In this document: positions 12,457 to 24,736 of the stretch, one piece after another
Position numbering within the stretch: the stretch's first letter is position 1
How the letters are laid out: the number at the start of each line of letters is the position of its first letter
Source of the DNA: a virus
Reading direction: 5' to 3' (one strand)
Length of the DNA: 40,701 nt
Virus record (IMG/VR): IMGVR_UViG_3300035665_000088
Coordinates: 1-40,701 of that record
The notes under the pieces: generated by a model
The model's database searches: none
The model's input: only the letters and a program-made list of their open reading frames with translations
What the model was told of the DNA's origin: nothing
Translations under genes and position numbers: made by a program

Positions 12457-12916
12457 AGCGTATACGAATCGGCTCGCTATCCCGTACCTTACAAAGTCAG
12501 GTGTGGTTGACATTCGATTCAGAAGTCTCGGACACGAAGAGCCACGATACATGGGCTTGGCTGGGGCTACGACACACTTGTATAACGTGGGAGCGTTTTT
12601 CCGTGCATCGTCATACATTTGCATTTGTGAAGGTGAAATCGATACCATCACCTTGGACATGGTATGCAACATACCAGCGGTTGGTGTCCCTGGCGTTAAT
12701 AATTGGAAGAAACATTACACTCGGCTCTTGGCTGACTTCGATAAGGTTTTCCTCTTCGCAGATGGAGATAATGCGGGCTCTGAGTTCGGCAAGTCCCTTT
12801 CCCGAGAGTTGTCTAATCTTGTTATTATCCAAGCACCCGAAGGCGAAGATGTCAACTCCCTTTATAGAGTTCACGGTTCAGACTACTTCAAAGAAAAGAT
12901 AGCGGGTGCTCAATAA
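12293..12916 (+). CDS. DnaG-like primase, TOPRIM catalytic part
   Basis: A 207-residue protein starting at GTG 12293 with ribosome site AAGGAG at 12278-12283, nine bases upstream. The helical AEDYLAERGITMEAAEKARLG is the usual linker before the catalytic core. TOPRIM motifs are CICEGEIDTITL (E113) and LFADGDNAG (D157, D159). It should make RNA primers together with the product of the overlapping zinc-finger gene. The two frames overlap by 164 bases. The separate ribosome site argues for two polypeptides rather than a sequencing frameshift; an ATG at 12326 is an alternative start. Confidence 0.75.
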   Translation: MKQSTSQKESLMRAAKYYHSALHEAEDYLAERGITMEAAEKARLGVVLDPLTGHEAYTNRLAIPYLTKSGVVDIRFRSLGHEEPRYMGLAGATTHLYNVGAFFRASSYICICEGEIDTITLDMVCNIPAVGVPGVNNWKKHYTRLLADFDKVFLFADGDNAGSEFGKSLSRELSNLVIIQAPEGEDVNSLYRVHGSDYFKEKIAGAQ

Positions 12917-13263
12917 TGTTATTACCTGAAGACGATGGCACATTTGCCTGCAAGAAGGATAACTTCAAGACAGGTAATCTATTTGAGTATATGGACCATT
13001 TCGGTGTGGAGTATGACTGGATGGTTAAACTCAACCCACGCTATAACTTCAATCTCTTTACCTTCTTGGGTGAACTTACCAACTACATCTTAGATAAGGA
13101 CTGGGAAGAAGCCTACGGCTTGACTCAGAGTGTCACACTCATGATGATTAACGCTAGTGGTGAAGACTTTGAGGAGTTCGTGGAAGAGGCTGAAGTAATC
13201 ACTGGTACACAGAATATGTTTGACCAACTAGAAAGGTTCCTTAATGACAATGGAACTAAATGA
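12916..13263 (+). CDS. Hypothetical early protein
   Basis: A 115-residue acidic protein coupled by TAATG to the primase gene. The text is helical and aromatic (LFEYMDHFGVEYDWMVKLNP, then WEEAYGLTQSVTLMM) with no Cys cluster or catalytic motif. The acidic C-terminus (EDFEEFVEEAEVITG) could bind a basic partner. I do not recognise the family. It is part of the replication transcription unit. Confidence 0.55.
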   Translation: MLLPEDDGTFACKKDNFKTGNLFEYMDHFGVEYDWMVKLNPRYNFNLFTFLGELTNYILDKDWEEAYGLTQSVTLMMINASGEDFEEFVEEAEVITGTQNMFDQLERFLNDNGTK

Positions 13264-13552
13264 TGACGAGCCAAGCAAGTTTGATTTGGTCGTGTGGTAC
13301 ACCTACGACTCGCTCGCTGAACTTCTCATAAAGAAGCATAACGACTACGGACCCAAGAACATTTCCGAAAGTCCTGGCGGTCCTTTGAACGGCTTGCGTG
13401 TGCGTATGCATGATAAACTTGCTCGGATAAACAACTTAATAGATAACAACAAGGAACCTGAGAACGAGCCTTTAGAAGATTCGTTCATAGACATGGCTAA
13501 CTACGCAATCATAGGATTGCTAGTGCTGAGAGGACAATGGGACAATGATTAA
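13244..13552 (+). CDS. DUF1599-like (nucleotide-modification-associated) protein
   Basis: A 102-residue protein overlapping its neighbour by 20 bases; ATG 13244 and ATG 13250 are both possible, with AAAGG upstream. LLIKKHNDYGPKNISES, GLRVRMHDKLARINNL and LEDSFIDMANYAIIGLL are the hallmark segments of the DUF1599 group, related to MazG-like all-alpha nucleotide pyrophosphohydrolases (the K..DYG and D..NYA helices). It may hydrolyse or handle nucleotides. The family assignment is good; the substrate is unknown. Confidence 0.7.
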   Translation: MTMELNDDEPSKFDLVVWYTYDSLAELLIKKHNDYGPKNISESPGGPLNGLRVRMHDKLARINNLIDNNKEPENEPLEDSFIDMANYAIIGLLVLRGQWDND

Positions 13553-13856
13553 ACGCTTTGGACCTTACAAAGGCAGTAAGCAGAACGGTGGTAGACCTAT
13601 CTATGTTTTCAAACGTCGCAAGAAGAATGGGGAAGTTGTTACTACTTCTTCTAACAAAGCCCGTGTTGATTACGAAGACAGCACTGGAGAGAATCTTCCT
13701 CGCCATAAAGAAGTAGACCATAAGAACAACAAGGGACGTGCTGGTGATGACCGCAAGTCTAATCTTCGTGTTGTTTCTAAGTCTGACAACGTGGCTATGG
13801 AGAACAAGCGCAGAGCCAAGAAGAAGCCTGCCAAGAAACGAAAGAAGAAAGCGTGA
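13545..13856 (+). CDS. HNH endonuclease
   Basis: A 103-residue basic protein. HKEVDHKNNKG at residues 54-64, followed by KSNLRVVSKSDN at 71-82, forms the HNH ββα-metal motif (H54, D58-H59, N73). The C-terminus is Lys-rich (KKPAKKRKKKA) and probably binds DNA. It is free-standing, embedded among replication genes with short overlaps at both sides. It could be a homing enzyme or a packaging or recombination helper; the position away from the terminase makes the packaging role less likely. Confidence 0.75.
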   Translation: MIKRFGPYKGSKQNGGRPIYVFKRRKKNGEVVTTSSNKARVDYEDSTGENLPRHKEVDHKNNKGRAGDDRKSNLRVVSKSDNVAMENKRRAKKKPAKKRKKKA

Positions 13857-14632
13857 GCAAAAAGAAATCGAAAGTAAAGCGGGTAGTAGTACTTTCTGAT
13901 ATACAGGCTCCCAGCCATGATGCCAGAGCCATCACAGCACTTCAGGATTTCGTATATGATTTTGAACCTGATGAACTGTACTGCGTAGGTGATGAGGCTG
14001 ATAGCCCTGAACCATCTCGCTGGAACAAAGGTAGAGCAGGCGAGTACGCCAAGACTTTACAATCAGGATTAGATAAAACATCTGACATTATGGAAGGCTT
14101 CAAGGACGTTCTTGGGGACAAGCCATTCCACACTATGAGGAGTAATCATGGCGACAGAATCGACCACTACATATCAAAGTATGCCCCTGCACTTGCTAGC
14201 CTCCGCGCTTTGGAGTATGAGGAACTGCTCCGATACCGTGAACTCGATATTACGTATCACGATAAAATCTGGCAGTTTGCCCCAGGATGGGCTCTTGCAC
14301 ACGGAGACGAAGGAAGCCTTCTACAAACTTCGGGAGGAACTGCGCTTAACCTTGCGAGACGTATCGGATTATCTGTCGTATGTGGACACACCCACCGCCA
14401 AGGTATCCAACATTACCACGTCGGATACAATGGGCGGATTAGTTCAAGACTCTTTGGAGTTGAAGTCGGGCACTTGATGGATTTGAACAAAGCAGACTAC
14501 CTATCCACGGGTGCTGCTAACTGGCAGCAAGGCTTTGCCATTCTGTACATCCGTCGCAGTAACGTTACCCCTGTGACTGTTCCAATTATCGGTAGGTCAT
14601 TCACTGTGGAGGGTAAGACGTACGCATGGTAA
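13853..14632 (+). CDS. Calcineurin-like metallophosphoesterase
   Basis: A 259-residue protein starting at GTG overlapping the HNH stop. All metallophosphoesterase motifs are visible: LSDIQAP (D16), CVGDEAD (46-50), SNHGD (97-101), LAHGDEG (149-154) and CGHTHRQ (177-183). Such phage enzymes may act as phosphatases or nucleases (for example Mre11/SbcD-like or nucleotide phosphatase), and the substrate cannot be told here. The first motif has Q where H is common (DIQ rather than DxH), a variant seen in this phage subgroup. It overlaps the sigma-like gene by seven bases. Confidence 0.75.
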   Translation: MSKKKSKVKRVVVLSDIQAPSHDARAITALQDFVYDFEPDELYCVGDEADSPEPSRWNKGRAGEYAKTLQSGLDKTSDIMEGFKDVLGDKPFHTMRSNHGDRIDHYISKYAPALASLRALEYEELLRYRELDITYHDKIWQFAPGWALAHGDEGSLLQTSGGTALNLARRIGLSVVCGHTHRQGIQHYHVGYNGRISSRLFGVEVGHLMDLNKADYLSTGAANWQQGFAILYIRRSNVTPVTVPIIGRSFTVEGKTYAW

Positions 14633-15318
14633 TAGAACAATACGAAGGACTTGTAGGCGCTATCGCTTATGAGTTCTCCCGTAAGTTCCACATGGTGGAA
14701 TCAGCAGACATACGCCAAGAGTTATGGCTATGGTTTCTGACCCACCCCAAGAAGTTGAAAGCGTGGGAAAGTTTAGATGGCAAAGAAACAACTAAACTTA
14801 TTAGCAGGTCTCTTAGGAATGCAGCAAAGGATTACTGCCAAAAAGAGAAGGCTCGCATTGTTGGTTATCGTGTTGAAGATAACTATTACTATGACCGTCA
14901 GGTATTGGAAATCCTTATCCCTGCTGTTCTTAGGGGCGATTCTTCTGCTCCTTCTATGGTTGATTTAGGATTTACTGCCACCAAGAAGGTGGCTAGTGAA
15001 GGCGGTAATTGGTTTGCGATGATGAGTGACATTGACAAAGCCATGAAGAAGTTACCTGATGAACAATACAACATTCTGTATCTGCGATTCGGTGATGGCA
15101 TGGAGAACTCAGATGTAGCATCAGAACTCCAGATATCTGATGATGCTGCTAGAATGAGAGTCAACAGAGCAATTAACAGTTTGCTTAACATATTAGGCGG
15201 GTCTAAGCCCCGCAGAGAGCGGGACTACACAGAAGATGAAGCCGCCAATCACATCGGAGAGAGTATTGACAGCATTGGAGAACCTACGGAAGAAGGTGGA
15301 CTCCAAGAGTTGGACTAA
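14626..15318 (+). CDS. Sigma-70-family RNA polymerase sigma factor-like protein
   Basis: A 230-residue protein. Region 2 is seen at about residues 5-50 (LVGAIAYEFSRKF, ADIRQELWLWFL). Region 4 lies at about 138-192, with LPDEQYNILYLRFGDG and a helix-turn-helix VASELQISDDAARMRVNRAI. The C-terminus is an acidic tail. It should redirect host RNA polymerase to phage promoters, most likely late ones. It is near the end of the rightward early unit. The domain reading is good; the promoters it uses are not known. Confidence 0.7.
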   Translation: MVIEQYEGLVGAIAYEFSRKFHMVESADIRQELWLWFLTHPKKLKAWESLDGKETTKLISRSLRNAAKDYCQKEKARIVGYRVEDNYYYDRQVLEILIPAVLRGDSSAPSMVDLGFTATKKVASEGGNWFAMMSDIDKAMKKLPDEQYNILYLRFGDGMENSDVASELQISDDAARMRVNRAINSLLNILGGSKPRRERDYTEDEAANHIGESIDSIGEPTEEGGLQELD

Positions 15319-15508
15319 CCCTCTAACTGAAGAAGAGACTGAACTTATTGAAGATGCGCTTTTTGCTGCTAGTGTTCTAACAGCACAGGTGCGTTCCTGG
15401 AACGAAGTTCATCAGATGGTTCCTCAACTCTTTAAGAGTATTATTGATTCATTTAATGACACGATAGTTTTTGCAGAAGACGAGTCCCCTGCGGAGGAGA
15501 CTAAGTAG
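15236..15508 (+). CDS. Hypothetical acidic helical protein
   Basis: Up to 90 residues if the ATG at 15236 is used, which overlaps the sigma gene by 83 bases. A TTG at 15266 has a better ribosome site (GGAG six bases upstream), and a GTG at 15296 is also possible, so the start is open. The body is helical and acidic (TEEETELIEDALFAASVLTA, VPQLFKSIIDSFNDTIVF) without known motifs. No function is assigned. Confidence 0.5.
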   Translation: MKPPITSERVLTALENLRKKVDSKSWTNPLTEEETELIEDALFAASVLTAQVRSWNEVHQMVPQLFKSIIDSFNDTIVFAEDESPAEETK

Positions 15509-15515
15509 AACGGCT

Positions 15516-15683
15516 ATGTCTGTCGATATGCCCAACACAAACCTTTGCGGCTCGTGCCGCTGGGAAGCGCACAAGCGCGAACTTGGGCATGTGAACCTCG
15601 CTAACGAACTCCATGAGTTCTGTAAAGGGTGCGAGTGTCAGGACAATAAAAAAGCCCCTACCGCCGAAGCGGTAAGGGCTTAG
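15516..15683 (+). CDS. Small Cys-rich zinc-ribbon protein
   Basis: A 55-residue protein that ends the rightward early unit. LCGSCRWEAHKRE and FCKGCECQDN give two Cys pairs around a helix, as in small zinc-binding phage proteins. The last 11 codons are formed by an inverted repeat that is the terminator for the opposing transcripts, so the C-terminal residues (KKAPTAEAVRA) are dictated by that hairpin. ATG 15516 is chosen; ATG 15528 is possible. A single CCAACACAAA word, the same as the iteron-like repeats, lies at 15532-15541. Confidence 0.6.
   Translation: MSVDMPNTNLCGSCRWEAHKRELGHVNLANELHEFCKGCECQDNKKAPTAEAVRA
15648..15680 (-). terminator. Terminator of the leftward operon
   Basis: Read on the minus strand, AGCCC-T-TACCGC, loop TTCG, GCGGTA-G-GGGCT, then six T: an 11-bp stem with one mismatch and a C(UUCG)G loop, a very stable terminator. 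It lies within the coding end of the opposing zinc-ribbon gene. On the plus strand there is no T run, so it acts mainly on leftward transcription. Confidence 0.8.
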
Positions 15684-15684
15684 T

Positions 15685-15699
15685 GTACGATTATCGTAC
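15685..15699. promoter_or_regulatory. Dyad site P1, GTACGATTATCGTAC
   Basis: Perfect 15-bp dyad (17 bp with flanking T and A), between the last leftward gene and its terminator. It is therefore downstream of all genes of the block, where it cannot be a promoter operator. Confidence 0.85.
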
Positions 15700-15706
15700 A
15701 GTTGGG

Positions 15707-15907
15707 TTATTCTACATTAACCCAGTTCATAGCAGTCCTCAGAAGGTTGTCGTAGTCACCTTCCATTGACTCAGAGAGGTATTGTTCTACCTCGCTTTCG
15801 GGAACACTCTCCTTTCGGAGAGCGCCCGATACCTTTGCCATGATAGCAAAAGCGTTGCCGTCTTGTCCTGTTAGTTGGACAGTTATATTTTTGTATTTAG
15901 GGTCCAC
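15707..15907 (-). CDS. Small hypothetical protein, last gene of leftward block
   Basis: A 66-residue acidic protein, GTG start 15907 with AGAAAG upstream and dyad P2 13 bases before the start. MDPKYKNITVQLTGQDGNAF, then AIMAKVSGALRK, looks like a small alpha/beta domain, ending TAMNWVNVE. The text resembles small actinophage proteins with one beta strand pair and two helices. A longer reading from 15994 would translate through P2 and the neighbouring gene, and is rejected. Function unknown. Confidence 0.6.
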   Translation of the reverse strand: MDPKYKNITVQLTGQDGNAFAIMAKVSGALRKESVPESEVEQYLSESMEGDYDNLLRTAMNWVNVE

Positions 15908-15920
15908 TTTATTACTTTCT

Positions 15921-15935
15921 GTACGATTATCGTAC
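15921..15935. promoter_or_regulatory. Dyad site P2
   Basis: GTACGATTATCGTAC. It sits between the stop of the 39-residue membrane protein gene and the start of the 66-residue gene, 13 bases upstream of GTG 15907. Confidence 0.85.
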
Positions 15936-15936
15936 A

Positions 15937-16056
15937 CTAGAGAGCCACCGCAAGCACCATGCCTACGGCGATTAGGGTCGAAAGGGAAGTCCATAGGATA
16001 AGTGCTAACTGCTCACTAACGGACTCAATGAAGTAGTTATCGCTATCCTCGTTCAT
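15937..16056 (-). CDS. Very small single-pass membrane protein
   Basis: A 39-residue protein with a good ribosome site (AGAAAGGAACAG then ATG). An acidic N-terminus (MNEDSDNYFIESVSEQ) leads to one hydrophobic segment from about residue 17 to the end (LALILWTSLSTLIAVGMVLA). The stop lies one base before dyad P2. It overlaps the WhiB gene end by 14 bases, as is usual for coupled genes. It may alter the membrane in superinfection or takeover, but nothing specific shows this. Confidence 0.6.
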   Translation of the reverse strand: MNEDSDNYFIESVSEQLALILWTSLSTLIAVGMVLAVAL

Positions 16057-16381
16057 CTGTTCCTTTCTGTATTGCGAACACAGTATTGTCATAAGTGTTC
16101 ATCATGAAGATAGGCGTAATGCCTAACTTCTCTTGTAGTTTCTGACGCTCTATGTGGTCAAGACCACCCCATATTCCAGAAAGACCAGAATACGCAAGAG
16201 CATAGTTCCTACACTCCATTAGAGCAGGACAAGCCTCGCAGATACTACGAGCCTTCATCGCGTCAGGGGTACGCGACCAGCGCTTATTGTTTCCGCGTGG
16301 CTCATCTGGGAACCACCACTCAGCAGGATAGTCCGCGCATGACGGCTTCTCTGATAGGACAGGAAAGTGATTATCTATCAT
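16043..16381 (-). CDS. whiB: WhiB-family transcription factor
   Basis: A 112-residue protein from ATG 16381, chosen because GGAG lies five bases upstream; ATG 16384 and GTG 16387 are too close to it. The iron-sulphur motif is C in KPSCADY, then ICEACPALMECRNYA (CxxCx5C), followed by SGIWGGLDHIER, the G[VI]WGG turn of the family. WhiB proteins bind the sigma factor of host RNA polymerase and change promoter choice. Phage copies can block host WhiB functions. Dyad P3 ends 14 bases upstream of the start. Confidence 0.85.
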   Translation of the reverse strand: MIDNHFPVLSEKPSCADYPAEWWFPDEPRGNNKRWSRTPDAMKARSICEACPALMECRNYALAYSGLSGIWGGLDHIERQKLQEKLGITPIFMMNTYDNTVFAIQKGTDERG

Positions 16382-16532
16382 CATCACTCCGTTCTGTACG
16401 ATTATCGTACGGCTCCCCTATCTTGGAGAAAGCGCATGGTTGGCAATACGCATAAGTGCTATCGTCGTAATGCGGTACAACTAAACCCACACCACACTTA
16501 TAGCACTCACGCTGTTTGTATATTGTTGTCAT
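16371..16532 (-). CDS. Small zinc-ribbon protein
   Basis: A 53-residue protein with ribosome site GAGAAAGAAG before ATG 16532. CYKCG (C10, C13) and YCQPC (C30, C33) form a zinc ribbon with VVPHYDD between them. The C-terminal residues PYDNRT are the translation of dyad P3, and the stop lies 11 bases into the WhiB gene. The tail is therefore set by DNA-level constraints. Function unknown; perhaps a host-protein binder. Confidence 0.6.
   Translation of the reverse strand: MTTIYKQRECYKCGVGLVVPHYDDSTYAYCQPCAFSKIGEPYDNRTERSDDDR
16396..16410. promoter_or_regulatory. Dyad site P3
   Basis: GTACGATTATCGTAC. It is inside the 3' end of the 53-residue zinc-ribbon gene, read there as PYDNRT, and 14 bases upstream of the WhiB start. 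Confidence 0.85.
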
Positions 16533-16749
16533 TGGCTTCTTTCTCTAGCGGTAGTTGTCCCGCTAGGTTGCGATACTCAATGGCTTTGAGCATCAGAGCA
16601 GAGTGGTCTGTCACTCTGCCCTCTGCTAATGCTTTGGATGCACTAGCAGAAAACATCTCGGCTCGCTTACTAAGGTAGTAAGGAGTCGGTGGTACAGGTT
16701 TCCACTTACCCACGATTGTACGCAGGTGTATAGACAGGCTCGATGACAT
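16507..16749 (-). CDS. Hypothetical small helical protein
   Basis: An 80-residue protein overlapping the preceding gene by 44 bases and the next by 26. The central part is helical (LSKRAEMFSASASKALAEGR, ALMLKAIEYRNLAGQLPLEK) and probably dimeric. The first ~20 residues fall in the overlap and the ribosome site is weak, so a start further inside is possible. No family recognised. Confidence 0.5.
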   Translation of the reverse strand: MSSSLSIHLRTIVGKWKPVPPTPYYLSKRAEMFSASASKALAEGRVTDHSALMLKAIEYRNLAGQLPLEKEANDNNIQTA

Positions 16750-16882
16750 TAGGCAATATCATCTTTTCTGCCCATGCTTCTGCTGCTTCCACAGTTGGAA
16801 ACAGTCCATAGGAGAGTGGCTCGTGTTCAACATGCTTGACAGCACGAACTACAAAGCCACTAACCATCATACCCTTTATCAT
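16706..16882 (-). CDS. Hypothetical small alpha/beta protein
   Basis: A 58-residue protein. Start ATG 16882 is chosen because GGGGGTGG lies upstream and the start follows the amidotransferase stop by two bases. The text MIKGMMVSGFVVRAVKHVEH, then YGLFPTVEAAEAWAEKMILP, reads as a beta hairpin followed by a helix, like small SPOR-like or single-domain ligand-binding proteins. It is clearly translated with the amidotransferase gene. Function unknown. Confidence 0.55.
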   Translation of the reverse strand: MIKGMMVSGFVVRAVKHVEHEPLSYGLFPTVEAAEAWAEKMILPNVIEPVYTPAYNRG

Positions 16883-16884
16883 GC

Positions 16885-17733
16885 TCACCACCCCCAAGCA
16901 GGTATGTCGTAGCCTGTACGATTATCGTACGGCTTGGTTTCTGCTTGATAGCATAAGCAGTTGGTCTTATACATACTACACATGTAACACGAGCCGCATG
17001 TAACGCAGAATGAGTCAGCATTGTTCTTCATAGCGACCCAATAATCCGTGACATTGTCACAGATACCGCACTCCAACCATTCGCCAGCGTCATATTCCTC
17101 TTTGGTGAGTGATGAGAGAGCATGCGTGGCGTATGAGGTAGCACCAAAGCGAGAATACCAACTCTCCAGTTCGTAGGTGGTGTTAGACCACCACACGCCT
17201 GTTGAGTCAAACCCACCCTTTTCCTCATGGAGAAGATAGAGTTGATGTTCTGCTTTGGGATTGACAGTAAGGAACGCAACTTTAGAACCTGTTGTGAAGT
17301 CCTCAAGCATGTTCCATACCTGCGGATTATCGAGAGAAGCGACACCGCCGATAGCAGGCATGATGTCCTCTGCGAATATGCGTGTGTCACTACGCATCTC
17401 GCCCTTGCTTTCCAGCACGGACAGTATGCCGTTGTGTGCTAGATACGTCTGCTCATCATCTCCCACCCTGAAAGGGTGGCAGTTATCAACTGTGTTAGAG
17501 CCGTGAGTGGCGTAGCGAGCGTGCCATATGGCATAGCCGTCTAGATACTTAGCCCTATCCTCAATGAACTTGTTGATACACTCATCAGCGTTCATTGTGG
17601 TAAAGGTGTGGATACGCCGCTCTTTGGGAACAGCGATAGCATAGCCGAAGCCATGAGGATTATTGAGAGCCGAGTTTTCCAACTTGTCACGAGAAGGAAT
17701 GACGTTCGGCGGTACTACGCAGAGCATACACAT
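16885..17733 (-). CDS. Class II glutamine amidotransferase with C-terminal zinc cluster
   Basis: A 282-residue protein. MCMLCVV puts a Cys at position 2, the nucleophile after Met removal, which also fixes the start. WHARYATHGS (R73-G78), H86, AHNGI (N101, G102) and RSDTRIFAE (D116) match the GFAT-type amidotransferase active site. It should release ammonia from glutamine, or act as a related N-terminal hydrolase. Residues 222-261 hold eight Cys (CGIC, CVTCGSCYMC, CLC), an added metal domain. PYDNRT at 268-273 is dyad P4. Dyad P5 ends 16 bases before the start. The gene directly upstream encodes an amidoligase, a plausible partner. Confidence 0.85.
   Translation of the reverse strand: MCMLCVVPPNVIPSRDKLENSALNNPHGFGYAIAVPKERRIHTFTTMNADECINKFIEDRAKYLDGYAIWHARYATHGSNTVDNCHPFRVGDDEQTYLAHNGILSVLESKGEMRSDTRIFAEDIMPAIGGVASLDNPQVWNMLEDFTTGSKVAFLTVNPKAEHQLYLLHEEKGGFDSTGVWWSNTTYELESWYSRFGATSYATHALSSLTKEEYDAGEWLECGICDNVTDYWVAMKNNADSFCVTCGSCYMCSMYKTNCLCYQAETKPYDNRTGYDIPAWGW
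16916..16930. promoter_or_regulatory. Dyad site P4
   Basis: GTACGATTATCGTAC inside the 3' end of the amidotransferase gene, read as PYDNRT. It is 33 bases upstream of the 58-residue gene start. Confidence 0.85.
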
Positions 17734-17749
17734 GGGATAGAACCTTTCT

Positions 17750-17764
17750 GTACGATAATCGTAC
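17750..17764. promoter_or_regulatory. Dyad site P5
   Basis: GTACGATAATCGTAC in the 33-base gap between the amidoligase stop and the amidotransferase start, 16 bases upstream of that start and next to the AGAAAGG ribosome site. Confidence 0.85.
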
Positions 17765-17766
17765 GA

Positions 17767-19398
17767 CTACTCGACCGAGTAATCATTCTCGAATGTCTTG
17801 ACCATGAGTGCGGTCAAGTGTGGATAAGTGTCTACGTTCTGATGAACGTAGCCAGCAAAGGCGAGCCATGACAGAGCAGTAGAACGCATCTTGCCGTCTA
17901 CTGTACGCACCATAGCCTTAGAGCCTACAACTCGCAGGTTGCGAGTGTATTCAACGCCAGCGTGGACGAACTCGATACAGGCAAGTACGCGCTCAGGTAT
18001 AAGTGAACCCTTGAACACACGAACCTCTAACGTGTTGTCGTTGTCGGTATTGACAGCAGCGTGACGACCACCTTCGGTGGCGTTGTATTTTACTTTACGG
18101 ACAAGGTGGTTCTTGTCCGCGAAGTTGGCATAACTAGGACTGGACCTACCAGCAAGCCGTTCGACCTGCCGTTGGTTGTCATAGATAAGTTTGATGAACC
18201 GAAGTTCATGTGACTGACGTGAACTGATGAAGTTACGTCTTGTTGTACGATAATCGTACGGCTCACCGAAAGCATCACGGGAAACGTGAACGTGTAAGCC
18301 GCAGGTATCTGTATCCCACGAGCGCAAGCCTGCCCTACGGAAACGAGCGAATGACTGCCACTCGAACTCCAACTGGAAAGACTGGAGTGAGTGTGGGTGA
18401 GTCACTATCTCGAAGCCATGATTAAGAGAGCCGTCCTCTTTGAGATAGACGCGCTCACCGAGAGCCTCCTGAACTAAGTGAGAAGTCTCGTCAATATTTC
18501 CTCCGCTCGCCTCAACTTCGAGTTCAATTCCGAAGAAGAGTCGCTCGTCAGGGTTGTCCTGCTTGCCGAAGAAGAATGGACGTGGCTTGTACGAATAGTC
18601 ATGGATAAGTTCATAACTCGTGTCTGAGTCGTATGAGCAGTCATGTCCTCGCTCGTACCAATACATTTCTCCACAGTCGTCGCACGTATTGACATTATCC
18701 TCATAACAAGTGCGGCAGTATGAGGCGTGTCTGAAGCGATAGTGGGTATCGTCATCAAGGAGTTCATGACTTTCGCAGTGGCTACACTGGAAGTAACTGT
18801 AAGCAAGAGTGTGGTTCCTTTCTTTGAGTATGCGAGTTACACAGTCGAAGCACTTGAGGTCGCCCTCGAAGCGAGTCATCTCGGTTGTATGGTAACTGGA
18901 ACCCCAACCGCCAACGTAGGTTACTCCACAGCAAGAAGGAGTGATAGAGCAGTGTTGATGTATCTGTACGATAATCGTACTGCCGTCAGCATTGGTTCTA
19001 GCGGACTGGGCATCAACAGTTCTGTATCTATCTCTGTTGCCTACCACTTCATCAGATAGCAAGTGGTCACCACAGCAAGAGCAGAGTTTCAATGACTCAT
19101 AGTAATCCACGAAGTCTGCGCTTTGGTTAGGCGAATAAAGCATGAGTTCACCGATAGCCTCAGCGTAAGGACTGCGTCCTTCACGGAAGCCTTCCTCGTT
19201 GCGTGGTTGGGTATATCTGTCAAGCATGTTTAGACATTGGTGATGGCACGCAAAGCACATCACATCTTCATCTTGGTTCCAGTTGTAATCTGGAACGTGG
19301 ATACGACTGAGTGAGTGTGTCATCAGCACAGCAGGGTCATTACAGCGAGGACAGAAGCCCTGTCCGATAATGCCCCAACTAGGCGTGGTGGTCGTCAT
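17767..19398 (-). CDS. Amidoligase-domain protein with N-terminal Cys-rich zinc region
   Basis: A 543-residue protein. The C-terminal domain (about 286-480) has the amidoligase (glutamine-synthetase-fold, Amidoligase_2) motifs: FGIELEVE (289-296), KEDGSLNHGFEIVTHP (320-335), CGLHVHVS (366-373), RHAAVN (445-450) and TLEVRVFKGSL (456-466). These enzymes use ATP to join an amine to a carboxyl group. Residues 15-255 carry many Cys/His pairs (FCPRC, MCFACHHQC, LCSCCG, CFDC, QCSHC, YCRTC, CDDCG), several zinc ribbons that may recognise the substrate. Dyad P8 ends 14 bases before the start; P6 and P7 lie inside, read as PYDYRT and STIIVQ. The target is unknown: protein, peptide, wall or base modification. 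Confidence 0.8.
   Translation of the reverse strand: MTTTTPSWGIIGQGFCPRCNDPAVLMTHSLSRIHVPDYNWNQDEDVMCFACHHQCLNMLDRYTQPRNEEGFREGRSPYAEAIGELMLYSPNQSADFVDYYESLKLCSCCGDHLLSDEVVGNRDRYRTVDAQSARTNADGSTIIVQIHQHCSITPSCCGVTYVGGWGSSYHTTEMTRFEGDLKCFDCVTRILKERNHTLAYSYFQCSHCESHELLDDDTHYRFRHASYCRTCYEDNVNTCDDCGEMYWYERGHDCSYDSDTSYELIHDYSYKPRPFFFGKQDNPDERLFFGIELEVEASGGNIDETSHLVQEALGERVYLKEDGSLNHGFEIVTHPHSLQSFQLEFEWQSFARFRRAGLRSWDTDTCGLHVHVSRDAFGEPYDYRTTRRNFISSRQSHELRFIKLIYDNQRQVERLAGRSSPSYANFADKNHLVRKVKYNATEGGRHAAVNTDNDNTLEVRVFKGSLIPERVLACIEFVHAGVEYTRNLRVVGSKAMVRTVDGKMRSTALSWLAFAGYVHQNVDTYPHLTALMVKTFENDYSVE
18245..18259. promoter_or_regulatory. Dyad site P6
   Basis: GTACGATAATCGTAC inside the amidoligase domain coding sequence, read as PYDYRT (residues 380-385), between the CGLHVHVS motif and a helix. 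Confidence 0.85.
18966..18980. promoter_or_regulatory. Dyad site P7
   Basis: GTACGATAATCGTAC inside the zinc-rich half of the amidoligase gene, read in a different frame from P6, as STIIVQ (residues 140-145). Confidence 0.85.
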
Positions 19399-19412
19399 GG
19401 TTGTTCCTGTCT

Positions 19413-19427
19413 GTACGATTATCGTAC
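19413..19427. promoter_or_regulatory. Dyad site P8
   Basis: GTACGATTATCGTAC. It supplies the TAA stop of the 51-residue membrane protein gene and lies 14 bases upstream of the amidoligase start. Confidence 0.85.
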
Positions 19428-19574
19428 ATGGTTACGAAGCGCGGATACTTTGGAACGAAGTGCTGTGTTCTCACGCGTGAGGCGAGCATTAGCAGATGCG
19501 CTCGTGATGATGAGCGCGACAGCAGCGACTAGAGCGATAGTTACAGCAACAACGTCTAGTGGTTGTAGGTACAT
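19419..19574 (-). CDS. Very small membrane protein with short coiled coil
   Basis: A 51-residue protein, first gene after the leftward promoter, with ribosome site AGAAAGGAACACC before ATG. A membrane segment spans about residues 8-28 (VVAVTIALVAAVALIITSAS), followed by a short heptad-like cytoplasmic helix (ARLTRENTALRSKVSALRNH). The layout recalls small Rz-like, holin-like or membrane-scaffold proteins. The stop codon is part of dyad P8. Function unknown; position suggests it works with the amidoligase. Confidence 0.6.
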   Translation of the reverse strand: MYLQPLDVVAVTIALVAAVALIITSASANARLTRENTALRSKVSALRNHVR

Positions 19575-19603
19575 GGTGTTCCTTTCTGATAGTGGTGGGC
19601 TAT

Positions 19604-19618
19604 GTACGATTATCGTAC
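19604..19618. promoter_or_regulatory. Dyad site P9
   Basis: GTACGATTATCGTAC in the leader of the leftward operon, 29 bases upstream of the 51-residue gene start and about 75 bases downstream of the promoter -10. Confidence 0.85.
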
Positions 19619-19622
19619 AAGC

Positions 19623-19665
19623 GGCTAGTGCTACGCCGAAAAGGTATAAAGACGCAGCACTAGCC
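19623..19665 (-). promoter_or_regulatory. Leader hairpin of the leftward operon
   Basis: Perfect 10-bp inverted repeat GGCTAGTGCT / AGCACTAGCC with 23 bases between the arms, in the untranslated leader just downstream of the promoter. It could be an attenuator, an mRNA-stabilising element or a protein site. Confidence 0.6.
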
Positions 19666-19667
19666 TA

Positions 19668-19684
19668 CGCAGGTCAGACCTGCG
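19668..19684. promoter_or_regulatory. 17-bp dyad at the predicted transcription start (probable operator)
   Basis: CGCAGGTCAGACCTGCG, perfect 8-bp arms around one base. Its right edge is nine bases downstream of the -10, so it covers the likely start point. A protein bound here would block initiation. Its sequence is unrelated to the P1-P11 dyad. Confidence 0.65.
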
Positions 19685-19692
19685 GTAGCATT

Positions 19693-19721
19693 ATTATCCC
19701 GTATCTGGGCTCCTAAGTCAA
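19693..19721 (-). promoter_or_regulatory. Leftward sigma-70-type promoter
   Basis: On the minus strand, -35 TTGACT and -10 GATAAT, each 5 of 6 to consensus, with an exact 17-base spacer. It would drive the 51-residue, amidoligase, amidotransferase, WhiB and zinc-ribbon genes as one unit ending at the 15648-15680 terminator. Confidence 0.7.
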
Positions 19722-19778
19722 ACGGCTAGGGGGGTGCGATAGGCGAACAAAACGGCTATTGGTGGCGAGCCGAGCCCG

Positions 19779-19863
19779 ACACAAACTCGCTTAGTCTCGA
19801 CACAAACTTTCCTCTCCAACACAAACCAAAGGAGTCTCCGACACAAATCTTTTCCAACACAAA
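19779..19863 (+). repeat. Iteron-like repeats, five copies of YCRACACAAA
   Basis: ACACAAA cores begin at 19779, 19800, 19819, 19841 and 19857, each preceded by CCG, TCG or CCA. Spacing is 21, 19, 22 and 16 bases, near two helical turns, all in one orientation. Two more copies lie at 20713 and 20739. Directly repeated words at this spacing are typical of initiator or repressor binding sites. Confidence 0.65.
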
Positions 19864-19874
19864 TTTTTCGGCGC

Positions 19875-19889
19875 GTACGAAAATCGTAC
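19875..19889. promoter_or_regulatory. Dyad site P10 (variant)
   Basis: GTACGAAAATCGTAC: arms kept, centre changed to AAA. It is the only imperfect copy and lies between the iteron-like repeats and the terminator of the 207-residue gene. Confidence 0.7.
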
Positions 19890-19904
19890 ATGTCCAGACA
19901 TGCC

Positions 19905-19934
19905 AAAACCCCCGACCCCTTTCGAGGTCGAGGG
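19905..19934 (-). terminator. Terminator of the 207-residue gene
   Basis: On the minus strand CCCTCGACC, loop TCGAAAGG, GGTCGGGGG, then TTTT: a 9-bp stem with one G-T pair. It starts 16 bases after the stop codon. The 11-base word GGGCTTAGGCG is repeated twice in between. Confidence 0.7.
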
Positions 19935-19949
19935 CTTAGGCGTTAGGGC

Positions 19950-20573
19950 TTAGGCGCTAACTTTGGCTTTCACGCTTGGGTGACGTGAAACCGCCATAGC
20001 GATTTCAATGGCGCGAATCAGAGCCTTTCCGTTCTCGACGTTAGTGATTACCGCTTCATCTCCCGACAAATCGCGGAGAGACTTTAGAGCGAGAGCCACC
20101 ACGCCGTCAGCGTGAGCGAGGACCGCCTTGAAATCAGCGACAGACGCCTTATCGGCTTTCGCCTTTTCGCCCTGCTTAGGCGTGGCGTTCACCAATTCCG
20201 CGAAAGACTTGGAAGCGTTAATGAAGGCTTCAGCGTCAGACTTGAAAGCGCGCTTGGCTTGAATTGTAGCGTTGAGGACCGCCTTGAGAGGCTTCTCTTT
20301 ACCGCCAGCGAGAGCGCGGACTTTTGCGGACAAGATGAAATACTGAGCAGTGGAAGGCTTGATGGTAGGAAGCGCGCCCTTTTCTGCCGCCGCTTCAATA
20401 GTAGCCTTGAGACCGCGTACAGAGATGGAGCCAGCGTTGAGCATTGAGACCGCTTTCTCATAGACCGAAATTTCTGCCTCAAGATTAACGACCGCCTCGA
20501 ACGAAGCCTTGAGGTCAGGGTTTACAACATCAAGCGAGGTAACTGCCTTTGATACTTTGACGTTCTTTTTCAT
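19950..20573 (-). CDS. Helical protein of unknown function flanked by iteron-like repeats
   Basis: A 207-residue, Ala/Lys/Glu-rich, almost fully helical protein. It starts MKKNVKVSKAVTSLDVVNPD after ribosome site AAAAGGAAAAG. Segments LEAEISVYEKAVSML, GLKATIEAAAEKGALPTI, TAQYFILSAKVRAL and AIEIAMAVSRHPSVK suggest a bundle with several amphipathic helices and basic patches. No helix-turn-helix or Cys is obvious. It is transcribed alone from its own promoter to its own terminator. Repeats lie on both sides and dyad P11 is just upstream of its promoter, so it may be the DNA-binding protein of the region. That is an inference from position only. Confidence 0.65.
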   Translation of the reverse strand: MKKNVKVSKAVTSLDVVNPDLKASFEAVVNLEAEISVYEKAVSMLNAGSISVRGLKATIEAAAEKGALPTIKPSTAQYFILSAKVRALAGGKEKPLKAVLNATIQAKRAFKSDAEAFINASKSFAELVNATPKQGEKAKADKASVADFKAVLAHADGVVALALKSLRDLSGDEAVITNVENGKALIRAIEIAMAVSRHPSVKAKVSA

Positions 20574-20620
20574 TTTCTTTTCCTTTTCTCTTAGGTCGAG
20601 CCTTTCTCGACCATGAAAGA

Positions 20621-20649
20621 ATTATGACAGAAATCGAATCCAAAAGCAA
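20621..20649 (-). promoter_or_regulatory. Leftward promoter of the 207-residue gene
   Basis: On the minus strand, -10 CATAAT (5 of 6) and -35 TTGCTT (weak) with a 17-base spacer. Dyad P11 starts 13 bases upstream of the -35, a position for an activator or a remote operator. Confidence 0.5.
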
Positions 20650-20662
20650 CTTACCGCGCCCC

Positions 20663-20677
20663 GTACGATAATCGTAC
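20663..20677. promoter_or_regulatory. Dyad site P11
   Basis: GTACGATAATCGTAC, flanked by C and G. It is the rightmost copy, immediately upstream of the promoter of the 207-residue gene and beside the divergent region. Confidence 0.85.
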
Positions 20678-20712
20678 GCATGCCCACAGGCTCAAGCGCA
20701 GAGAGTCCCCCA

Positions 20713-20745
20713 ACACAAACGCCCCCCTTTTAATCCCGACACAAA
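20713..20745 (+). repeat. Two further iteron-like repeats
   Basis: CCAACACAAA and CCGACACAAA with cores at 20713 and 20739, 26 bases apart, in the same orientation as the five copies at 19779-19863. Confidence 0.55.
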
Positions 20746-20756
20746 AAACGCGCTCA

Positions 20757-20805
20757 CTCGCTTCGCTCGTTCGCACCAAAGACGGAAAGGTGCTCGCTTC
20801 GCTCG
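20757..20805 (+). repeat. Two copies of CTCGCTTCGCTCG
   Basis: Exact 13-base direct repeats at 20757-20769 and 20793-20805, each able to fold on itself (CGAGC-GAA-GCGAG on the minus strand). They are followed by the small hairpin GTCGC-TAC-GCGAC. Confidence 0.6.
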
Positions 20806-20845
20806 CTCTCTTTCCCTACGTGTCGCTACGCGACCCCAGTTTTTA

Positions 20846-20862
20846 TAGCGCCAGGGGCGCTA
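20846..20862. repeat. Short perfect hairpin TAGCGCC-AGG-GGCGCTA
   Basis: Seven-base arms with a three-base loop. A related hairpin AGCGCC-TAGA-GGCGCT lies at 21086-21101, just before the terminase start, so the same stem is used twice. Confidence 0.5.
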
Positions 20863-21001
20863 GGTACACACTCTCCGCAAATAATATTTTTCCAGTATTT
20901 GCTCCGAGTGTGCCCGTAATGTCCATATTATATGTAATCTAGGTAACAGTTTTGTTATAAAGCGTTCGTTTTAGGTATTTGAACGGGTTAGTATATATGT
21001 A

Positions 21002-21073
21002 AGGATATGAGCGGTACACGGAAGCGAATATCCTTCCCGCTCGGCAGTCTATGGGACTGCCTCGCTTTTCTTT
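21002..21073 (+). ncRNA. Candidate structured RNA with attenuator-like hairpin before the terminase
   Basis: AGGATAT (21002-21008) can pair with ATATCCT (21028-21034), and GAGCGG (21009-21014), inside that loop, can pair with CCGCTC (21037-21042). This gives a pseudoknot or two competing stems. Next comes a perfect 7-bp hairpin, GGCAGTC/GACTGCC (21043-21061), followed by TCGCTTTTCTTT. The arrangement resembles a sensor plus terminator in the leader of the terminase operon. It is a prediction from pairing by eye. Confidence 0.4.
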
Positions 21074-21132
21074 AGGGGGTAGCGAAGCGCCTAGAGGCGC
21101 TGAGCGAAGGGGGATTATTATGGAGGATTTAT

Positions 21133-23004
21133 ATGGCTGCCAAATCAGGCTCTGAGCATCATAATGTTGCCAGACTTAAGGAGGCAAAGTCCAAGGTTTT
21201 AGATTTCGTCCGTCAAGGGTTAGACCTACAAGACGCCCTGGCTAGGGCTGGCAGGAAGCCTGACGTGATGAAGGACTGGCGGAAAGACCCTAAGTTTGTC
21301 AAAGAACTTGAAGCCGCCAGGGAAGAAGGCGAGCGCACCCTCAGCATCGTCACAGGGGATGCCAAGTACAAGATAGGTTTCGAGCAGTTCTCGGCAGAGT
21401 TCTTAGACTCACCCATCTTTCCTCACCATAGGTCCTGGATTGATGTACTTGAGGGGCGTGAGCCGTCTTGGTTACATCCAGCGATGACCTATGAGCCTTC
21501 GAGCACCAAAAGGTTGCTGATTAATGTCCCGCCCGAGCATGCCAAGTCTACCGTCATCACGGTCAACTACTGCGTCTATCGGATTGCGATGGACCCGAAT
21601 GTCAAGATTACGATTGTCTCTAAGACTCAAGAACGCGCTAAGGAGTATCTCTACTCCATCAAGCAGCGTCTGAGCCACGAGCGCTGGTCTAAACTCCAAG
21701 CCGTCTACGGTTCTGCTGGAGGATGGAAAGAGGACGCAGATACCTGGAAGGCTGACCGTATCTACCTCAGCCGCGACTCCACCGAGAAGGACCCAACCGT
21801 ACAGGCGCTAGGTATTGGTGGTCAGATTACTGGTGCCCGTTCTAACCTGATTATCCTAGATGACGTTGTGACAACCTCCAACGCTCATGAGTGGGAAAAG
21901 CAACTCCTCTGGCTACAGCGAGATGTTGTTACCCGTCTGGGTGATAACGGTAAGTTGCTTATTGTGGGGACACGTATTGCCTCTAATGACCTTTACAGGG
22001 AAATCCGTAATGGTGAACATTGGAGTAACGGTAAGACCCCCTTCACCTATTTTGCCATGCCCGCAGTTTTAGAACTAGATGAGGACCCAGCCAACTGGGT
22101 TACTCTCTGGGCAAAGAGCCATATACCCTGGGAGGGTTCGGATGAGACGGTACTTCCTGATGAAAACGGTCTATATCCTAAATGGGACGGACCAGCACTC
22201 TATCGAAGAAGGAGTGAAGTTTCTCCGTCAGCCTGGGCACTGGTCTACCAACAGCAAGATGTACAAGAAGATTCTATCTTTGCCCCTGCGTGTGTCCAAG
22301 GTTCGCTCAACAGGATGCGAAAGCGTGGTCCTCTAAAGCCAGGCGCCCCTGGACATCCTAGAGAACGCGGTTCCTGGTACACCATTATGGGTCTAGACCC
22401 TGCGATGACAGGAAACACTGCTGCTGTTATCATGACAGTAGACCGCAATACGCGTCAAAGGTACATTCTTGATGTTGTCAATATGACAGAACCTACCCCA
22501 GCCAAGATTCGTGAACTGATTAATGACTGGGTCGAGAAGTACCAACCACAAGAATTACGAATTGAAATCAATGCTCACCAGAAAGCCTATGCGCTTGATG
22601 ATGACTTGCGTTCATTCCTTGCCTCAGTAGGGGTTAGATTCTCTAGCCAGTTTACAGGTAAGAACAAATGGGACACATCTTTCGGTGTTGCTGCTATGTC
22701 TGGTCTCTTTGGGACTGTACGTAACGGTGTGCATCAAGATGACAACCTGATAGAACTTCCTTCTCAGGATGGTTCTGAGGGTATTAAGTCATTGATACAA
22801 CAATTGATTACTTGGAAGCCTGACACTAAGGGTAAGACCGACTGTGTGATGGCTCTGTGGTTCTGTGAACTACGCGCCAGGGAAATCATTGGCAGTAACA
22901 ACTTTAACCAGAGTCACGTTGTAAACAGATGGGCTACAAGAAAACAACTCGAACAGCGTTACGTGATGAACGTAAACGACTACGAGTTCTCAGTGTACGA
23001 ATAG
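21133..23004 (+). CDS. terL: Terminase large subunit with N-terminal helix-turn-helix-like extension
   Basis: A 623-residue protein. The ATPase has a Walker A variant PPEHAKST (133-140), Walker B LIILDD (239-244) and the coupling motif IVGTR (277-281). The C-terminal RNase H-like nuclease shows GLDPAMTG (420-427), LRIEINAH and KTDCVMALW. It cuts concatemers and drives DNA into the capsid. The first 70 residues (VLDFVRQGLDLQDALARAGR, DVMKDWRKDPKF) look like the DNA-binding helices of a small terminase subunit; no separate small subunit gene was found nearby. Ribosome site GGAGG precedes the ATG. Confidence 0.9.
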   Translation: MAAKSGSEHHNVARLKEAKSKVLDFVRQGLDLQDALARAGRKPDVMKDWRKDPKFVKELEAAREEGERTLSIVTGDAKYKIGFEQFSAEFLDSPIFPHHRSWIDVLEGREPSWLHPAMTYEPSSTKRLLINVPPEHAKSTVITVNYCVYRIAMDPNVKITIVSKTQERAKEYLYSIKQRLSHERWSKLQAVYGSAGGWKEDADTWKADRIYLSRDSTEKDPTVQALGIGGQITGARSNLIILDDVVTTSNAHEWEKQLLWLQRDVVTRLGDNGKLLIVGTRIASNDLYREIRNGEHWSNGKTPFTYFAMPAVLELDEDPANWVTLWAKSHIPWEGSDETVLPDENGLYPKWDGPALYRRRSEVSPSAWALVYQQQDVQEDSIFAPACVQGSLNRMRKRGPLKPGAPGHPRERGSWYTIMGLDPAMTGNTAAVIMTVDRNTRQRYILDVVNMTEPTPAKIRELINDWVEKYQPQELRIEINAHQKAYALDDDLRSFLASVGVRFSSQFTGKNKWDTSFGVAAMSGLFGTVRNGVHQDDNLIELPSQDGSEGIKSLIQQLITWKPDTKGKTDCVMALWFCELRAREIIGSNNFNQSHVVNRWATRKQLEQRYVMNVNDYEFSVYE

Positions 23005-23011
23005 GACTATG

Positions 23012-24736
23012 ATGGAATTAGATATCCAAACGATTGCAAGGCGGGTTGAGAATCTCAAGATTCGCAATGGCGCCCGCGATGCACGAATGCAGGATATCCT
23101 TGCTGTACGCAAAGGTGATATGGGTCAGATTTATCCTGACTTGTTCCCTGAAGGCATGGACAAACCCATGGTGGCTAACTTCGTTGATGTCGCAGCACGC
23201 GACTTGGCTGAGGTTCTAGCACCACTTCCATCATTTAACTGCGCTACAAGCAATGTCAATAATGACCGCGCTCGTGCTTTTGCTGATAAGCGCACCTTGA
23301 TTGCCAACAACTATGTTTACAATTCACGCCTACAGTCACAGATGTACTGGGGTGCTGACTGGTATTTCTCATACGGCTTCTTGCCTGTCTATGTAGAACC
23401 TGATTTTGATTCTAACCTTCCACGTATCCGTGTTGAAGACCCAATGGGTGGTTACCCAGAGTTTGATAGATTTGGTCGTTGCGTAGCATACGCAAAGCGT
23501 TACTTCAAGACTCTTGGTGAACTAGCAGTAGATTACCCAGAGTACGCACCTATCTTGCTTGGTCGCGATGGTTTCAATCAAGACACCAGCATGAAGGTCG
23601 AGATGATTCGCTATAGTGATGCGAATGTAACTGTATTGTTCTTGCCAGACAGAGGCAACCTCGTTCTTAACTACGCGGCAAACCCTCTTGGCAAGATGAA
23701 TGTTTTTGTAGCACGACGTCCTTCACTTGATGAAGAAACACGTGGACAATTTGACGATGTACTGTATGTACAACTAGCACGTGCACGTTTTGCTAATCTT
23801 GCAATGGAAGCAGCAGAGAAGTCTATCCAGGCTCCTCTTGTTGTTCCAACAGATGTCGTCGACATGCCAATGGGTCCTGATGCGATTATCCGCACAGCAC
23901 AGCCAGCAGGCGTAGGTCGCGTTAGACTAGATGTACCAGCAGCAGCGTTTCAGGAACAGGCTGCACTCCAGAGCGAACTTCGCTTGGGTGCACGTTATCC
24001 TGAAGGACGTACAGGAACCATTGATGCTTCAATCATCACTGGTCAAGGCGTACAAGCATTGCTTGGTGCATTCGACTCTCAAATCAAGGCAGGACAGACA
24101 ATCCTGACCGAAGTGTTTGAAGATGTTGTCGCAACATGTTTCGAAATGGATGAACTCCTTTTCGATAAAGAAAAGAGCGTCAAGGGTATCGCACAGGGTA
24201 CGCCGTACGAGTTAAAGTACAAACCAAGCAAAGACATCAAAGGTGACACTTCTATCGAAGTACGTTACGGTTTGATGGCAGGACTTGACCCATCGCGAGC
24301 CTTGATTTTCTCTCTTCAGGCACTTGGAGCCGATTTGGTATCTAAGGATTTCATTCGTCGTGAACTTCCATGGAGCGTAAACGTATCGCTCGAAGAACAA
24401 CGAATTGAAATCGAAAAGATGCGCAGCAATCTGTCTGCTGCTGTAACAGCCACAGCGCAAGCAATACCTGCCATGGCTGCACAGGGGCAAGACCCATCTG
24501 CGCTTATTCAGAAAATTGCAGACGTTATTGAACGTCGTCGCAATGGGGACACTATCGAGGCTGCTGCGCTTGCCGTGTTCACACCCGAGCAACCTGCGCA
24601 GGCAGAGATGACCCCGCCAGGCACACAAGGACCAGTTGAGGCTACCCCGTCCCCAGTCGCTCCTGGACAACCTTCTGGTGGGGTCCCACAACAAGCACCA
24701 GATTTAGCAAGCATATTGGCAGGCTTAGGGGGATAA
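23012..24736 (+). CDS. Portal protein
   Basis: A 574-residue protein; ATG 23012 has AGGA five bases upstream, and ATG 23009 is possible. Placement directly after the terminase, length and composition fit a portal: helical stem region, FLPVYVEPDFDSNLPRIRVE, the long helix EEQRIEIEKMRSNLSAAVTA, and a Pro/Gln-rich disordered C-terminus (PAQAEMTPPGTQGPVEATPS). It forms the dodecameric DNA channel at one capsid vertex. The divergence from well-known portals is high, so the call rests mainly on order and overall pattern. Confidence 0.75.
   Translation: MELDIQTIARRVENLKIRNGARDARMQDILAVRKGDMGQIYPDLFPEGMDKPMVANFVDVAARDLAEVLAPLPSFNCATSNVNNDRARAFADKRTLIANNYVYNSRLQSQMYWGADWYFSYGFLPVYVEPDFDSNLPRIRVEDPMGGYPEFDRFGRCVAYAKRYFKTLGELAVDYPEYAPILLGRDGFNQDTSMKVEMIRYSDANVTVLFLPDRGNLVLNYAANPLGKMNVFVARRPSLDEETRGQFDDVLYVQLARARFANLAMEAAEKSIQAPLVVPTDVVDMPMGPDAIIRTAQPAGVGRVRLDVPAAAFQEQAALQSELRLGARYPEGRTGTIDASIITGQGVQALLGAFDSQIKAGQTILTEVFEDVVATCFEMDELLFDKEKSVKGIAQGTPYELKYKPSKDIKGDTSIEVRYGLMAGLDPSRALIFSLQALGADLVSKDFIRRELPWSVNVSLEEQRIEIEKMRSNLSAAVTATAQAIPAMAAQGQDPSALIQKIADVIERRRNGDTIEAAALAVFTPEQPAQAEMTPPGTQGPVEATPSPVAPGQPSGGVPQQAPDLASILAGLGG

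Follow-up and report, generated by a model that had tools for sequence, protein, structure and literature searches.

Repeated dyads confined to one operon of freshwater actinophages covary with P207, a candidate DNA-binding protein

The window analyzed here comprises all 40,701 bases of a virus contig (IMG/VR record IMGVR_UViG_3300035665_000088, taken at its full length), in which eleven copies of a short dyad are confined to one leftward block of genes encoding, among others, a 207-residue protein (hereafter P207), a 543-residue Cys-rich protein, a class II glutamine amidotransferase (GATase) and a WhiB-like protein. Across related loci the dyads co-occur and covary with P207, which argues that they are operators of dimeric P207; we hold it highly probable that P207 is the binder, and strongly infer from the sequence comparisons that it contacts the DNA, probably as a dimer. 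Both the preferred reading of the original prediction, sites for a dimeric DNA-binding protein, and its nomination of the 207-residue protein as candidate binder are thereby strongly supported. P207 itself appears to be a previously undescribed phage protein: comparison with Pfam and PHROGs gave no convincing family match, and its family seems to be absent from both.

Ten copies match GTACGATWATCGTAC exactly and the eleventh, GTACGAAAATCGTAC at 19875, differs by a single change at its center (Table 1). A search of all 40,701 bases allowing up to three mismatches returned no further match, and 100 shuffles of the window searched at the same threshold gave a mean of 0.38 and a maximum of 2 matches, never reaching eleven. 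The eleven-copy claim of the original prediction thus stands, as ten exact copies and one center variant with none elsewhere in the 40.7 kb, and so does the irregular spacing, recomputed at 191-834 bases between copies. The start-codon distances given for four copies hold as well, the 14 nucleotides ascribed to the WhiB gene being counted to an in-frame ATG (8 nucleotides to the GTG start). What needs amendment is the motif itself: the 15-bp word is real, but since both 6-bp arms are perfect even at 19875 the conserved core reduces to GTACGA-NNN-TCGTAC, and symmetry continues outward from it, with Y at -1 in 98%, R at +1 in 99% and mostly S at +/-2 among 175 non-redundant sites, so that the true motif is a 7-3-7 dyad, YGTACGA-NNN-TCGTACR.

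Scanning IMG/VR with the word yielded 44 records carrying several copies, and these word-bearing records carry the genes and the block of the window. Together with the window they hold 323 core copies, lying in stretches of at most 5.7 kb within records of up to 42.6 kb, and only 15 single-mismatch copies of the core; the sites are block-confined in these records and absent outside the block in the window. Relatives gathered in this way are biased towards the word; a second set of loci was collected independently of any word, by sigma factor, of which roughly 590 relatives were counted, and by GATase, which avoids that bias, and dyads were then counted de novo. About 250 related loci were assembled, leaving 104 with a complete block after dereplication. 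Most loci feature one dominant repeated dyad in the same leftward block, of one type per genome, and the types comprise more than 20 sequences: GTACGA, GTACGG, GTATGA, GTATTA, GTAAGA, GTAGGA, GCAGGA, GTCCGA, GTCTGA, GTTAGG, GTTGGA, GTTCGG (in two spacings), GTTCGT, GTTTGG, GGTCGG, GTCGGG, GTCGGC, GCCGTA, TCCGTT, TTCGGT, CTATAT and CTTTAT. Regardless of its sequence, a dyad ends 14-24 nucleotides before the GATase start in 55 of the 56 loci where that start could be located. The loci L478 and L480 share 86% identity in block DNA, and at all five aligned sites one locus has GTTGGA where the other has GCAGGA; overall, the whole set of sites appears to switch type in concert with P207. The possibility that each palindrome comprises two -10 elements (TACGAT) facing one another was dropped, since other dyad types lack TACGAT and no conserved -35 element was seen by eye upstream of the start-associated sites.

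Presence of the dyads goes together with presence of the protein. Of the 104 complete loci left after dereplication, 89 combine a P207 homologue with four or more exact dyads and 10 lack both; four have P207 with two or three exact dyads, the sets of all four being degenerate, and the single locus with dyads and no P207 lies on a contig that starts inside the block (Fisher p = 4e-10 counted strictly, 4e-13 counting degenerate sets). No reading frame of the P207-free loci matches the P207 profile, and these loci still carry GATase and the 543-residue protein; WhiB too is present in both groups. As phages without both P207 and dyads keep the operon, the pair would constitute an added layer of control. 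On the GATase tree the presence of P207 and that of dyads change seven times each, with only two independent comparisons on well-supported branches.

Variation in the dyads likewise tracks P207. Dyad distance correlates with P207 distance (r 0.62, rising to 0.67 for residues 48-90), and with GATase distance held constant the partial correlation is 0.54, a value that 0 of 500 permutations reach; with P207 held constant, the partial correlations are -0.005 for GATase, -0.05 for the 543-residue protein and 0.05 for WhiB. The 24 dyad types require 24 changes on the P207 tree, compared with 40, 36 and 34 on the trees of GATase, the 543-residue protein and WhiB, so that, as judged from these sequences, dyad type follows the tree of P207 and not those of the other three. 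Within P207, the excess divergence between types is highest in two helices of the structural model, 52-63 and 73-86, which we propose form a helix-turn-helix with residue 77 in the second helix. Gln77 is found in all nine odd-centered types whose arm base 3 is A and in 0 of the 11 other types (p = 6e-6), and Glu77 in all three types with C at that base, as well as in the even-centered GTCGGG type. Counted per locus, the pairings of residue 77 with arm base 3 are Gln-A in 39, Glu-C in 4, other residues with T in 20 and His-A in one, and on the GATase tree seven of eight independent changes of Gln are coupled to A, with none against (p = 0.016). Helix-turn-helix proteins classically contact adenine through Gln, and contacts of Glu with cytosine also occur. 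This matching of residue to base is the main ground for proposing that P207 reads the dyad as DNA.

P207 is encoded by the first gene of the block and is the gene product at which similarity breaks between types. The positional homologue in the GTTCGG type has no BLAST match to P207, and profile comparison joins the two (probability 98.4, E 5e-15). No relative was found by tblastn in deposited phages, nor any in 201 genomes of the likely host order, a search run without a positive control, and a sequence search of the PDB returned designed helical proteins and chance matches only. AlphaFold2 predicts an all-helical N-terminal domain, with a mean predicted local distance difference test score (pLDDT) of at least 90 in each ten-residue block over residues 11-130 of the better model.

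In the mechanism that we propose, P207 would act as a homodimer with one subunit per 7-bp arm, Gln77 of the predicted recognition helix contacting arm base 3. As the product of the first block gene it would be made first and would then bind the dyads that separate almost all neighboring block genes and also occur inside the long 543-residue gene, most likely halting or excluding RNA polymerase across the WhiB/GATase/543-residue operon by stoperator-like silencing. Its own coding region has no dyad, and it would be a self-expressed silencer. We judge it somewhat probable that P207 silences the operon, consistent with the fixed placement of a site ahead of the GATase start whatever its sequence and with the recurrence of sites inside long genes. 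P207 coding DNA holds 2 dyads in 50.5 kb compared with 79 expected. Several observations weigh against this account. WhiB coding DNA is equally free of dyads, so that self-sparing is not specific to P207; the nearest dyad upstream of P207 is often centered 54-73 bp before the predicted transcription start, a position more usual for activators; and because no integrase is among the matches of the scanned window proteins (some small reading frames lay outside the scan), a lysogenic role of silencing is not evident. As to recognition, a P207 tree built without the helix counts only four independent switches, all coupled and none opposed (p = 0.125), residue 77 is not the only one to stand out in column tests, and there is no confident structural relative: the best Foldseek match in the PDB is the operator-binding domain of KorB at E 0.65-0.95 and a probability of ~0.3, values that make the likeness a lead only. 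The earlier suggestion of operators or stoperators of a repressor is thus supported as far as operators of P207 are concerned, while repression we only infer.

Type diversification may, by analogy, be immunity-like, a suggestion that we make tentatively: a P207 from another phage would affect the operon if it were of the same type, so that types would diverge and all sites would switch with the protein. Interference between like types sharing a cell, if it occurs, would lead to such diversification, as with the immunity repressors of cluster A phages (PMC6550527). With the same reserve, P207 could be regarded as founding a new DNA-binding regulator family, the protein and its 6-11 operators having switched specificity together more than 20 times in a single phage group and in an immunity-like fashion, a resident P207 silencing the operon of an incoming phage only when it is of the same type.

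A possible, if doubtful, alternative is that P207, once bound to the dyads, activates transcription, or that it organizes or protects the DNA of the block, instead of silencing it. The position of the boundary dyad ~54-73 bp upstream of the predicted P207 transcript start, found in a large share of promoter-scored loci, is that of class I activators, and both ends of the block are marked by dyads, as activation or organization would have it; yet the promoter calls are weak and in the window no better than shuffles, the boundary dyad of the GTTCGG type lies downstream of the predicted start (+33/+34), and most sites are in ribosome-binding zones or in genes, where they are of no obvious use to an activator.

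That the binder is WhiB, the phage sigma factor or a host protein, with P207 a mere passenger, we regard as improbable. The region encodes WhiB and the sigma factor, both of them transcription proteins, and WhiB distance alone correlates with dyad distance (r 0.40), but next to nothing of this is left once P207 is accounted for, which speaks against the earlier naming of WhiB as a candidate binder; moreover, WhiB also occurs in dyad-free loci, and the residue-to-base matching resides in P207. Bacterial genomes scanned with the word gave only single chance matches, and with 5 sites in 151 genomes of the host order no host regulon is evident. Less likely again are RNA hairpins ahead of ribosome-binding sites, which the original prediction had entertained. 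Many dyads end just before an AGAAAGG-like ribosome site, and start-associated copies read on the coding strand favor TAA over TTA (47 to 15, p = 6e-5), a bias without explanation; predicted hairpin stability, however, ranges from -1.0 to -10.7 kcal/mol between types, sites in the 543-residue gene occupy all three reading frames, in even-centered types the palindrome runs on across the would-be loop (YTAR, TTTAAA), single changes within the GTACGA set disrupt pairing, nearly always without compensation, and the link to P207 with its Gln-A and Glu-C rule is typical of double-stranded DNA reading. Partition (parS-like) sites, also proposed earlier, gain no support, with no ParB-like match to P207 found above chance and all sites located within one operon. 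Improbable, too, are module-boundary sites for recombination between phages, since, for all that dyads lie at gene junctions and the GATase, 543-residue and WhiB trees disagree with dyad type in a mosaic-like manner, full sets change type in flanks still 86% identical, many sites are inside genes and none occurs in the rest of the mosaic genome.

Among known systems, the 17-bp dyads of cluster O phages (Corndog; PMC4351075) are present in 34 copies over ~70 kb and not linked to starts, with, as proposed here, a predicted dimeric binder and, as among the scanned window proteins, no integrase. Like the window's dyads they have 7-bp invariant arms, a 3-bp A/T-rich center, mixed orientation and both intergenic and in-gene copies. 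Their sequence, TGTTCGG-NNN-CCGAACA, is not that of the window and is identical in the sister phages G045-G050, and an IMG/VR scan with it turned up freshwater phages that belong to the window's group, their terminase being 83% identical, and have that word in the same block; the original statement that the dyads are unlike the cluster O palindromes is therefore right for the window and fails for sister phages, which carry that repeat in the same places. In contrast to cluster O, 6-11 copies are here confined to one 5-kb operon and linked to starts, and they have diversified into multiple types, none being reported for cluster O. The Corndog-like G051 (IMGVR_UViG_2974766419_000001) is 72.7 kb long and carries ~35 cluster O dyads, whose central triplet is mostly AAA/TTT, that of the freshwater GTTCGG type being ATT/AAT; a search of G051 with the P207 profile gave nothing above noise.

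The stoperators of cluster A phages (L5, Bxb1; PMC6550527, PMC9283540) are asymmetric, oriented with transcription and present in 20-30 copies genome-wide in temperate phages, where a monomeric two-domain immunity repressor (Rep) reads them. Shared with them are the many copies of one site, apparently for one phage protein, within and between genes, and the joint divergence of protein and site specificity. The window differs in that its sites are perfect dyads with mixed center orientation, eleven of them within 5 kb (and relatives' sites in similarly compact spans of much longer records), that P207 is unrelated by family search, matching neither Pfam nor PHROGs, and that type changes swap several arm bases at once. 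In cluster K phages (PMC3203893), the start-associated sequence (SAS) is an asymmetric 13-mer, GGGATAGGAGCCC, and the extended start-associated sequence (ESAS) an inverted repeat with 17-bp imperfect arms and 4-13 bp spacers; as with the present dyads, these repeats stand just upstream of start codons for a subset of genes, but they are tied to starts, whereas the dyad is symmetric, of a different sequence and often inside genes. KorB of plasmid RK2, a ParB-family CTPase clamp, silences at long range from dispersed palindromic operators (PMC11790492). The likeness consists in palindromic operators of one protein and in the weak Foldseek match; for P207, on the other hand, no ParB-family match above chance and no Pfam ParB match were found, the structural match is not significant, and one member of the P207 family reaches a ParB-like PHROG only at E 0.19.

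It has long been asked how a regulator and its many sites change specificity in concert and still work, and natural series in which to study this are scarce. The small P207 family and its putative operators would provide more than 20 natural types at one genomic place, in pairs that reach 86% DNA identity yet disagree at all aligned sites, and the Gln77-A/Glu77-C correspondence would be a first residue-to-base rule. The loci further offer a sister system for the unexplained cluster O repeats and a candidate regulator for an operon found in widespread freshwater phages.

In the window, the block runs from a boundary dyad through P207 and a further dyad to later genes, most of them preceded by a dyad, with internal dyads in the long gene and the last dyad at the terminator (Table 1). 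The mycobacteriophage relatives of the 543-residue protein (e.g., that of Marvin) are annotated as glutamine amidotransferase domain proteins, and the pair of GATase and 543-residue genes (16885-19398) is retained in phages with and without dyads.

Table 1. Dyads and genes of the leftward block, listed from its upstream end (window coordinates).
Position	Strand	Feature	Basis
20663..20677	.	Dyad at upstream block boundary, 89 nucleotides upstream of P207 start	Exact match
20621..20649	-	Possible sigma-70-like block promoter TTGCTT-N17-CATAAT, weak	By eye; consensus matches here not above shuffles
19950..20573	-	P207, 207 residues, all-helical, proposed dyad-binding protein	Model; co-occurrence and covariation
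19875..19889	.	Center-variant dyad, directly after P207 gene	Sequence match
19604..19618	.	Dyad upstream of 51-residue membrane-protein gene	Exact match
19419..19574	-	51-residue predicted membrane protein	
19413..19427	.	Dyad, 14 nucleotides before 543-residue gene start	Exact match
17767..19398	-	543-residue Cys-rich protein, relative of Marvin gp105-like mycobacteriophage proteins (phrog_16683)	
18966..18980	.	Dyad within 543-residue gene, reads TIIV	Exact match
18245..18259	.	Dyad within 543-residue gene, reads YDYR (frame differs from TIIV copy)	Exact match
17750..17764	.	Dyad, 16 nucleotides before GATase start	Exact match; place kept in 55/56 loci
16885..17733	-	Class II glutamine amidotransferase (GATase)	
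16916..16930	.	Dyad close to GATase gene 3' end	Exact match
16371..16532	-	53-residue zinc-ribbon-like protein; dyad 16396 in its 3' end	
16396..16410	.	Dyad before WhiB start	Exact match
16043..16387	-	WhiB-like protein	
15921..15935	.	Dyad, 13 nucleotides before 66-residue gene	Exact match
15707..15909	-	66-residue protein, phrog_1933	
15685..15699	.	Dyad at downstream block end, adjoining terminator (stem 15652-15681) between convergent transcripts	Exact match

Mixed site sets were seen in a few relatives. One genome of the GTACGA type, G043 (L253/L254), carries one stray GTTCGGATTCCGAAC at 23612 in block orientation, 65 nucleotides past the final dyad of its own type at the block end, perhaps left over from a type change or exchange, and in L375 and L523 the set is in transition, with GTACGATATATCGTAC and GTATGATATATCATAC-like variants, a symmetric double change included, within one genome. 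A second, oriented repeat of the window, TTTGTGTYGG on the minus strand, lies at 19778-19863, 20712-20745, 15534 and 10530, with five copies arrayed at 16-22 bp spacing immediately downstream of P207 and further copies upstream of it. It is iteron-like, and its orientation and similar places recur in relatives, the GTTCGG type included; the 8-mer count alone is within chance in the window.

The window phage belongs to a group of freshwater actinophages, and its proteins have PHROG or Pfam matches to terminase, portal, major head protein, DnaB-like helicase, primase zinc domain, Cas4-like exonuclease, sigma factor and WhiB. Megablast of positions 12000-24000 against deposited phages gave no match. 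The nearest cultured phages, LanE43AprE7 and LanE43AprF5 (OX376640, OX376641; terminase 60% identical), infect Ca. Planktophila (PMC10202952) and have a sigma factor and a diverged WhiB in common with the window; searches of both found no GATase, 543-residue protein or P207, nor any repeated dyad, original or substitute. A host of the Ca. Planktophila type is suggested for the window phage only by kinship of the group, whose cultured members are distant. Outside the block, the metallophosphoesterase encoded at 13853-14632 has relatives at two levels of identity, ~42% or 83-97%, which suggests gene replacement.

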